A DNA stretch of 42,492 nt from Hyphomicrobium sp. (GTDB lineage: Bacteria > Pseudomonadota > Alphaproteobacteria > Rhizobiales > Hyphomicrobiaceae): contig NZ_JADZBI010000144.1 of NCBI RefSeq assembly GCF_020852195.1, forward strand, positions 1 to 42,492, written 5' to 3'. A program made the position numbers and the translations under genes. The notes under the pieces were generated by a model. It was not told the origin of the DNA. It did not search any database and saw only the letters and a list, made by a program, of their open reading frames with translations. Of the stretch, positions 21,471 through 23,968 are shown piece by piece (the first letter of the stretch is position 1; the number at the start of each line of letters is the position of its first letter).

Positions 21471-22619
21471 CTAGCGCGGCAGCAGCGCGGCGACGTGCGC
21501 GCCGATGGCAAGCGACGAGGTGAGGCCGGGGCTCTCGATGCCGTACAGCGCGACGAGGCGGGCTATGCCGTGGTCGCGCGCGTCGTGCATGGCGAAATCG
21601 CGGGCGGGCTCGCCGCTGGCGTAGATCTTGGGCCGCACGCCCACATAGCCCGGCGACAGCCGGCCTTCAGGCAGCCCCGGCCAGTAGCGGCGGATCTCCC
21701 GCTCGAAGCGCGCGCGGCGCGCGCCGTCCTCCTCGTCGAACACTGTGCTCGGCTCCACCTGCCATTCGAGGTCGGGGCCGAACCGGGCACGCCCGGCGAT
21801 GTCGAGGGTCAGATGGATGCCAAGCCAGGCATCCCGGGGCAGCGGGTAGACGAGGTGGCGGAAGGGTGTCGGGCCGTCGAGCACGTAGTAGTGACCGCGC
21901 GCGGGATAGGTCTTCGGCGGTTCGTAGCGGGAGTCCGCTACCAACATCGATCCGAGCCGCGTCGCGCCGAGGCCGGCGGCGATGACAAGGTTGCGAGCCG
22001 TGAGGGTCGTCCGCTCGCCGGCGCTGACGGTCGCGATCTCGAACGGCGCGCCGTCGCGTGCCTGGAGATCCGCGACGTCAGCGTTGAGCACGATGCTACC
22101 GGCACCCGAGCGGATGTGCCCCTCAAGCGCGACCATCAGCGCATGGCTGTCGATCACGCCCGTCGACGGGGACAGCAGTGCCCCGACGCAGTCGAGATCC
22201 GGCTCGCGGGCCTGCACATCGGCGGCGCTCAGTCGGGCGATGTCGGACACGCCGTTGGCGCGCGCCGTCGCGGCCAGGGCGTCCAGACGGGGCAGCTCGG
22301 CCTCGGCCGTGGCCACGACAAGCTTGCCGTAGCGGGCATGGGGGATACCGTTCTCGCGCGCGAAGGCATAGAGCATGCGGCGTCCCTCGACGCACAGGCG
22401 CGCCTTGAGGCTGCCCGGCGGATAGTAGAGGCCGGCGTGGATGACCTCGCTCGAGCGGCTGCTCGTCTCCTGGCCGATGGCGCCGTGTCGTTCGAGGACG
22501 ACGACCTCGTGGCCCGCCGCCGCCAGGCTCCGCGCTATGGCTAGGCCGACGACGCCGGCGCCGATCACCACGGTCTCGACGTCGGGCGCGTCACGGACCT
22601 GAGCGGCAGGGTTATTCAC
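21471..22619 (-). CDS. FAD-dependent oxidoreductase, L-2-hydroxyglutarate dehydrogenase-like
   Basis: A DAO-fold flavoprotein of 382 residues. The FAD-binding motif is TVVIGAGVVGLAIARSLA with an acidic end at VVVLER. The region SSRSSEVIHAGLYYPPGSLK with ARLCVEGRRMLYAFARENGI and YGKLVVAT matches L-2-hydroxyglutarate dehydrogenase/oxidase (LhgO/L2HGDH), which oxidises L-2-hydroxyglutarate to 2-oxoglutarate. The C-terminus ends in the flavin-contacting LVALYGIESPGLTSSLAIG. Related 2-hydroxyacid or amino-acid oxidases share much of this, so the substrate is likely but not certain. It starts at GTG 22619 with GAGGTGAG upstream and is divergent from the DUF2130 gene. Confidence 0.86.
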   Translation of the reverse strand: MNNPAAQVRDAPDVETVVIGAGVVGLAIARSLAAAGHEVVVLERHGAIGQETSSRSSEVIHAGLYYPPGSLKARLCVEGRRMLYAFARENGIPHARYGKLVVATAEAELPRLDALAATARANGVSDIARLSAADVQAREPDLDCVGALLSPSTGVIDSHALMVALEGHIRSGAGSIVLNADVADLQARDGAPFEIATVSAGERTTLTARNLVIAAGLGATRLGSMLVADSRYEPPKTYPARGHYYVLDGPTPFRHLVYPLPRDAWLGIHLTLDIAGRARFGPDLEWQVEPSTVFDEEDGARRARFEREIRRYWPGLPEGRLSPGYVGVRPKIYASGEPARDFAMHDARDHGIARLVALYGIESPGLTSSLAIGAHVAALLPR

Positions 22620-22724
22620 AATGTTCTCACCTCTGTTCTCTTTTCTAAAATTCCTTTTTATTCAAACTATTAAGTCTACATAGTGCCGAGTTATCCACAG
22701 GCTGAAGTTTTCCGCTGTGGACAA
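22612..22724. promoter_or_regulatory. DnaA-box-like cluster around an AT-rich stretch
   Basis: Three 9-mers fit the DnaA-box form TTWTNCACA: TTATTCACA (22612-22620, plus), TTATCCACA (22691-22699, plus, perfect consensus) and TTGTCCACA (22716-22724, minus). The last two form an inverted pair, GTTATCCACAG / CTGTGGACAAC. Between the first and second is a very AT-rich run (about 22621-22690), striking in this GC-rich window. It also is the divergent promoter region of the oxidoreductase and DUF2130 genes. Confidence 0.5.
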
Positions 22725-22727
22725 CAA

Positions 22728-22742
22728 GAACAAAAATAGAAC
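22728..22742. promoter_or_regulatory. Predicted LexA (SOS) box
   Basis: GAAC-AAAAATA-GAAC, the reverse complement of GTTC-N7-GTTC, which is the LexA operator form of Alphaproteobacteria. It is 62 bases upstream of the DUF2130 start codon, where a promoter is expected. It is a full match to both half-sites with a T-rich spacer on the operator strand. Confidence 0.65.
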
Positions 22743-22804
22743 ATCTTTTCCTGCGAATCATCTAGCTTGGTTTGTCCCCGATGAACCACTCCGGAGACTA
22801 GGCC

Positions 22805-23968
22805 ATGTCCCTGCTGCAGCGGCACGCGGTTCCCGTGTTCGATAACCCGTCCGAGCCAGCCGACGCTCATCCGCATACGGCCGAGGAACGCTGTCCCTGG
22901 TGCGACCAGTCCATCCCGCACGAGAAGTTCTCGGCCATCCGTGATCGGATCGCCCAAAAGGAGCGCGAGCAGCATGCGCTCATGACGGCGCGGCTCAAGG
23001 AGGAGTTCGCGCGCGAGAAGGCGGATCTCGCCGCAAAGGTGCAGGAGGAGGCCAAACGCGCGGCGGAAGCGGCGATGGCGGCTCGCCTCGAGGCAGCAGA
23101 AGCCGAAGTGACGGCGCGCCTCAAGGCTGCCGACGAGGCGCGGCTCGCCGCGGAGGCGTCGCGGCAGGCCGCCGAGGCCACGCTCAACCAGCAGCGCGAG
23201 CTGCTCGAGCAGGAGAAGACCGTGGCCGTGCTCGCCGAGCAGGCGAAGGCCTTCGAGGAGCGCCAGAAGCTCATGGAGAAGCTCGCTCTGCTGCAGAAGC
23301 AGATCGAAAACAAGACCGCGCAGGAGATCGGCGAAGGGCCCGAGGCCGACCTGTTCGAGCTTTTGCGCGAGGCGTTCGAGGGCGACCGCATCCGGCGCGT
23401 CGCCAAGGGTCTCTCGGGCGCGGACGTCATTCACGAGGTGGTCCGCAACGGGCAGGTGTGCGGCAAGATCGTCTACGACTCGAAGAGCCGCAACGCCTGG
23501 AAGAACGATTTCGTCACCAAGCTCAGGGCGGATCAGCTCGCCGAGCGGGCGGAACACGCCATCCTCTCCTGCAACAAGCTTCCGCAAGGCGCGCAGCAGA
23601 TCCACGTCCAGGACGGCGTCATCGTCGCCCATCCGCAGCGCGTGCTGGTGCTGGCGCAGATCCTCCGGCGCCACGTCATCGAGACGCATGAGCTGCGCGT
23701 GGGCAACGATCAGCGCGACGAGAAGACGGCCGAGCTCTATGCGTTCATCACGTCGGACCGATGCAAGCAGCTCCTGGAGCACATCGCGCTGCAGGCGCAG
23801 CGCATGCTCGAGCTCGAAGCGTCCGAGGAGCGCGCGCACCGCATGACCTGGGAGAAGCGCGGCAAGCTGATCCGGTCGGTGCAGAAGGTGCACAGCGATC
23901 TCTGCTTCGAGATCGAGCGCGTGATCGGTACGGGCGAGGCGAACGAACCCGACGCGGACGAGGGCTAG
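22805..23968 (+). CDS. DUF2130 protein with coiled coil, possible nuclease fold
   Basis: A 387-residue protein. The N-terminus has one CPWC pair (Cys30, Cys33), a half zinc-ribbon. A long alanine/glutamate-rich coiled coil covers about 45-170. The DUF2130 domain (about 175-365) has GADVIHEV (Asp207), GKIVYDSKSRNAW (Asp225, Lys227), LSCNKLPQG and LYAFITSDRCKQLLEHI. The spacing Asp-17-Asp-x-Lys resembles PD-(D/E)xK nuclease cores; that is my inference. GGAG precedes the ATG by 8 bases. A LexA box and DnaA-box-like sites lie upstream, suggesting DNA-damage control. The domain call is strong, the function unknown. Confidence 0.82.
   Translation: MSLLQRHAVPVFDNPSEPADAHPHTAEERCPWCDQSIPHEKFSAIRDRIAQKEREQHALMTARLKEEFAREKADLAAKVQEEAKRAAEAAMAARLEAAEAEVTARLKAADEARLAAEASRQAAEATLNQQRELLEQEKTVAVLAEQAKAFEERQKLMEKLALLQKQIENKTAQEIGEGPEADLFELLREAFEGDRIRRVAKGLSGADVIHEVVRNGQVCGKIVYDSKSRNAWKNDFVTKLRADQLAERAEHAILSCNKLPQGAQQIHVQDGVIVAHPQRVLVLAQILRRHVIETHELRVGNDQRDEKTAELYAFITSDRCKQLLEHIALQAQRMLELEASEERAHRMTWEKRGKLIRSVQKVHSDLCFEIERVIGTGEANEPDADEG

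Follow-up and report, generated by a model that had tools for sequence, protein, structure and literature searches.

What does a short direct repeat in front of a DUF2130 gene of Hyphomicrobium sp. control, and what would the product of this gene do under that control? DUF2130 is widespread and has no assigned function; we found almost nothing on it in the literature and no paper linking it to the SOS response. Hyphomicrobium relatives are soil and water bacteria, and to our knowledge the SOS regulon of this group has not been mapped. The stretch analysed here (the window; 42,492 nucleotides) is a complete contig of a 4.24-Mb draft genome. A search of genome contigs for related loci returned a single relative, the closest named one being an uncultured Hyphomicrobium MAG. 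The features at issue are the following:

22728–22742, forward strand: predicted LexA box GAACAAAAATAGAAC (reverse complement GTTCTATTTTTGTTC); exact match, high matrix score, kept in relatives
22805–23968, forward strand: DUF2130 gene, 387 amino acids, with CPxC, coiled coil and PD-(D/E)XK-like domain (ORF, PF09903 match)
21471–22619, reverse strand: FAD-dependent oxidoreductase gene (PF01266, DAO), head-to-head with the DUF2130 gene across a common intergenic region

An independent matrix recognizes the site as a probable LexA box

The initial annotation had placed GAAC-N7-GAAC 62 bases ahead of the DUF2130 start, and this is confirmed: GAACAAAAATAGAAC ends 62 nt upstream of the ATG at 22805 and is the one match to GAACN7GAAC in the window, with about one expected by chance. 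As an argument for a LexA box the bare motif is weak, its 79 matches genome-wide standing against 75 for the reversed control pattern. Since this is chance level, a stronger test with an independent matrix was needed.

The matrix was derived from the recA and ssb promoter regions of 30 genomes of Hyphomicrobiaceae, DUF2130 promoters being left out; ssb was taken to be divergent from uvrA, as we assume from the usual alphaproteobacterial arrangement. GAAC-N7-GTAC was present at every recA listed and GAAC-N7-GAAC at every ssb region, with mostly A/T-rich spacers. The 59 recA and uvrA/ssb sites score from 18.4 to 33.4. Comparison with the boxes at recA and lexA, which the initial annotation had proposed, and at uvrA/ssb sets the window box at 27.1 against a training median of 27.6; the runner-up site in the window reaches 4.6, and none of 100 shuffles of the region reached 27.1. 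A restrictive consensus picked after the matrix had been seen, GAACAWWNNNRGWAC, hits 8 sites across the 4.24-Mb genome, its reversed control 3. Unlike the bare pattern, the box with its A/T-rich spacer and flanks is far beyond chance.

Boxes at SOS genes of the same genome

The genome encodes LexA and RecA (recA is split over two contigs, L028 and L029, in the draft assembly). Ranked by pattern searches only, its boxes include those of lexA (GAACGATTAGGGTAC, score 19.2), recA (GAACAAAACGTGTAC, 27.4), uvrA/ssb (28.1), imuA-imuB (30.6; genes identified by reading ORF sequences, without a profile match) and two radical-SAM genes (30.8 and 29.4). Like the window box, the last four are among the 8 occurrences of GAACAWWNNNRGWAC. 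Strong boxes of 29.2 and 29.3 were also found at L011 2501–2515 and L018 2501–2515, at genes without assignment to SOS: the first is close to an L,D-transpeptidase gene, the second close to the end of a contig, next to a 151-aa ORF. On the strength of these predicted sites, the linked genes are new SOS candidates.

The LexA boxes of Caulobacter are GTTCN7GTTC, GTTCttgttatGTTC among them (PMC12700426), i.e. the same direct-repeat operator with the same spacer style. The Hyphomicrobium genome has boxes at recA, uvrA/ssb and imuAB, and its box GTTCTTGTTATGTTC (L014) is letter-identical to that of two Caulobacter SOS genes (PMC12700426). Unlike this genome, Caulobacter vibrioides has no DUF2130, as a control search showed.

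The box recurs before DUF2130 genes of Hyphomicrobiaceae

DUF2130 is present in 31 of 103 genomes of Hyphomicrobiaceae and falls into two subfamilies by Pfam score, a canonical one (about 250–315 bits) and a divergent one (about 88–117 bits), which includes the window gene. We considered 32 family genes, counting L010 and L155, apparently one genome, once. With the score of the weakest training site as strict threshold, 18 of the 32 carry a box upstream; a further 6 have one scoring 10–17, so that 24 reach at least 10, and 8 have none. Absence from relatives, which the initial annotation had named as speaking against its own claim, was therefore not what we found. Boxed genes span both subfamilies and unrelated gene neighbourhoods. 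All boxes at or above threshold share one orientation and lie roughly 30–190 nt upstream of the probable start codon.

With 17 of the 18 strictly boxed genes, none of 100 shuffles reached the observed score; for the remaining one, L058, the shuffled region excluded the box owing to a wrong start. Across 116 kb of family DUF2130 loci no further site reached the threshold besides the DUF2130 boxes, and RmuC genes of the same genomes, taken as a control, were boxed in 0 of 10 cases. In the intergenic alignment of relatives no block is better conserved than the box. A tree of 67 DUF2130 proteins shows recurrent gains or losses of the box: at least 8 presence/absence changes are forced by well supported branches, a figure that implies no exact number of gains and that includes boxes at some tips from A/T-rich genomes which may be chance. 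The LexA-box reading is supported by the matrix score, the rarity of the full consensus and this recurrence; as far as predicted sites can tell, the initial annotation was right about SOS control, on stronger grounds than it first offered.

Outside the family the pattern thins out. Mesorhizobium plasmids carry a box 63–65 nt upstream of DUF2130 in the opposite orientation, a Bradyrhizobium plasmid (L074) has an exact box and another (L084) a one-mismatch box. Few DUF2130 genes of other alphaproteobacteria are boxed, and none of the 11 readable copies on viral contigs. Among 25 DUF2130 genes of the wider Pseudomonadota a single strong alpha-type box was found (G790), and no E. coli-type or Gram-positive-type box save one partial match, CTGTCAGCAACTTCAG. 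SOS control of DUF2130 everywhere was rejected, these three groups being mostly boxless: judged by predicted sites, control by the box is a trait of Hyphomicrobiaceae, not of DUF2130 at large. Boxless genes of the divergent subfamily (L067, L068, L073, L221, L159) have a common motif just upstream, like ATTAGGAGAAAATAGGACCTA, perhaps a site for some other repressor.

The box lies in a likely promoter

Around the box, the following elements were recognized by consensus match only:

22718–22723, forward strand: likely −35 TGGACA of the DUF2130 promoter, 5/6 to TTGACA (a score equalled by 3% of random positions)
22742–22747, forward strand: likely −10 CATCTT, weak, 3/6

The window promoter would thus read TGGACA-18-CATCTT, its spacer occupied by the box. 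The clearest case is L047, where the box sits between TTGACT and TATAAT with a 17-nt spacer; it also lies between TGGACA and CATAAT in L036 and between TTGACG and TAGACT in L039. L047 and L036 have a better −10 than the window. In other relatives the box and the −10 overlap, the best −35 being farther upstream; in some, promoter inspection found no good promoter around it. Because the box stands in or beside the −35/−10 spacer, repression by occlusion is suggested: bound LexA would keep RNA polymerase off the DUF2130 promoter, and upon DNA damage RecA-driven self-cleavage of LexA would free it.

The DUF2130 protein is predicted to hold a nuclease core

The genome holds one DUF2130 copy, the window gene, which matches PF09903 with 97.3 bits (E 1.1e-27; curated cut-off 26.7). 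Three parts of it can be delimited:

22892–22903, forward strand: codons for C30-P-W-C33 (alignments)
22919–23314, forward strand: long helix, predicted coiled coil, residues 39–170 (AlphaFold2 model)
23339–23629, forward strand: predicted nuclease core, residues 179–275 (domain model, conserved residues, fold matches)

In an alignment of 22 DUF2130 proteins C30, C33, E180, D207 and K227 are invariant, and position 225 is D or E in nearly all. Modelled at full length with AlphaFold2, the protein shows the long helix, but the overall quality is low (pTM 0.35); the isolated domain is modelled well, with pLDDT 87.7 and pTM 0.83. Its predicted secondary structure, alpha-beta-beta-beta-alpha-beta, follows the order of the PD-(D/E)XK core: D207 opens strand 2, D225-S-K227 close strand 3, and E180 is also present.

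Compared with PDB folds, the best matches of the domain are Holliday junction resolvases, ST1444 (E 1.1e-3, prob 1.00) and A. fulgidus Hjc (4.1e-3), each weak; HindIII, SPARDA, DdmD, BstEII and VRR-NUC follow, and most top matches belong to the PD-(D/E)XK superfamily. A viral structure library gave a best E of 3.4e-6, with several restriction-endonuclease names. A sequence search against solved structures returned coiled-coil and other chance matches only. We provisionally assign the domain to PD-(D/E)XK because the class of matches is consistent and the catalytic pattern complete, no single match being strong; on these models the protein likely works as a nuclease. DUF2130 may have been placed in this superfamily earlier. 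The 2005 PD-(D/E)XK survey names RmuC, not COG4487 (PMC1189080).

Three known systems resemble this architecture. The RmuC family (PF02646, COG1322) combines a coiled coil with a PD-(D/E)XK core (PMC1189080), as predicted for DUF2130, with a membrane helix where DUF2130 has its N-terminal CPxC. A Pfam scan of the window protein gives PF09903 alone, with no RmuC match, and RmuC homology by profile was rejected as not significant (hhalign probability 0.5%; very shallow RmuC profile). Archaeal Hjc and restriction endonucleases have the core fold predicted for DUF2130 and the same catalytic residue pattern, at 18–21% identity over the aligned part; the coiled coil and CPxC are extra in DUF2130. 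SbcCD and Mre11-Rad50 likewise join a nuclease to a long coiled coil with a CxxC, whereas DUF2130 has no ATPase, its nuclease superfamily differs, and its CxxC is N-terminal rather than at the coiled-coil tip.

A proposed role in SOS repair

We consider it highly probable that the site is a LexA operator which makes the DUF2130 gene a member of the SOS regulon, and that the product of this gene is a coiled-coil PD-(D/E)XK nuclease, most likely cutting DNA with branches or breaks in the course of SOS repair. The N-terminal cysteine pair would probably bind zinc and form a dimer, and the C-terminal core, with its complete catalytic set, would cut DNA, acting in the manner of RmuC, Hjc or SbcCD. 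Processing of repair intermediates by an SOS-induced nuclease is, we infer, the best reading. Counted against it are the 8 of 32 family genes without a box, the mostly boxless DUF2130 genes elsewhere in Pseudomonadota, the poor −10 of the window and the individual weakness of the PDB fold matches (best E 1.1e-3).

Its main rival holds that the SOS-controlled nuclease is an effector of defence or programmed damage, like ShdA of Shield with its RmuC domain, and not a repair enzyme. There is a precedent in ShdA, a DNA-degrading protein that blocks phages (PMC10270631), and plasmid DUF2130 genes are found near AbiE, SIR2-DUF87, TrlF, methylases and restriction genes. We nevertheless hold a defence role to be rather unlikely: many family DUF2130 copies adjoin metabolic, not defence, genes; PADLOC profiles give no real match but weak coiled-coil overlap with LmuB and PDC-S06; and SOS control suits repair better, although defence genes can be SOS-induced. 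The plasmid loci (L074–L084, Bradyrhizobium and Mesorhizobium) are often near transfer genes too. Membership in a defence or phage family was tried as well, and none was found in profile searches.

A complete PD-(D/E)XK site and a LexA operator repeatedly gained or kept narrow the role of DUF2130 to post-damage DNA processing. The SOS regulon of this ecologically important group thereby has one more candidate effector. An SOS switch recurring before this gene in many relatives makes a role in repair or defence testable.

The divergent oxidase gene and the shared intergenic region

The same operator might instead serve the divergent FAD-oxidase gene (which we take to resemble L-2-hydroxyglutarate oxidase) alone, DUF2130 being a bystander. 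Every boxed DUF2130 gene of the divergent subfamily is indeed head-to-head with the oxidase gene, and the three family members of this subfamily that lack an oxidase neighbour are all boxless. In G066 and G069 (Hyphomicrobium), moreover, a strong box stands between bactofilin and oxidase with no DUF2130 at the place. Yet in the canonical subfamily 12 of 22 genes are boxed, none with an oxidase neighbour, and several of these have an upstream neighbour reading in the same direction, so that the box there can serve only DUF2130. Nor is the box usual at oxidase genes: of the 24 oxidase loci that lack a DUF2130 neighbour just 4 have a strong one, and 2 of the 4 (G018, G020) have it before an SbcD-like metallophosphoesterase gene head-to-head with the oxidase. 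In the other two, the sequence around the box is, by alignment, similar to the DUF2130-facing side of the window promoter and may be a relic. Control of the oxidase alone is improbable on this evidence. Common control is quite possible: boxes precede the oxidase without DUF2130 in two relatives, and so the window operator may serve both genes.

The SbcD-like genes (L177 2721–3926 and L181 2–1120) have boxes of 24.9 and 20.0, in genomes without a DUF2130 match. In G004 an RmuC gene (L188 2154–3521; PF02646, E 1.3e-96) occupies the DUF2130 place by the oxidase, with a moderate box of 15.2; RmuC genes outside this place had no LexA box (0 of 10). The place beside the oxidase thus seems to take differing nuclease genes, with few genomes behind this impression. 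One could go further and see in it a slot open to SOS-induced nucleases of the coiled-coil or repair kind, where DUF2130, RmuC and SbcD-like genes are swapped under LexA boxes, and in DUF2130 a single-chain, ATP-free counterpart of SbcCD clearing damaged replication or recombination structures; we regard this extension as doubtful.

The remaining alternative, a fortuitous match with a DUF2130 gene outside LexA control, as the chance-level count of the bare pattern would allow, is scarcely credible against the matrix score, the rarity of the full consensus and the recurrence before relatives' DUF2130 genes, conservation having already contradicted it.

The intergenic region holds other sites. 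A perfect DnaA-type box, TTATCCACA, lies at 22691–22699, the chance expectation for the whole window being 0.1. On the opposite strand, TGTGGACAA at 22716–22724 comes close to it. A replication origin at this DnaA-like box was set aside, as there is no clear GC-skew turn within the window. TTATCCACA is kept in several Hyphomicrobium relatives, between the LexA box and the oxidase gene, and DnaA control of the DUF2130/oxidase promoter region is possible, going by these motifs. Just before the oxidase start, GTTC-N8-GTTC is found at 22623–22638, with a spacing unlike that of the LexA box, and GAGAACA half-sites reappear at the oxidase-start position in relatives.
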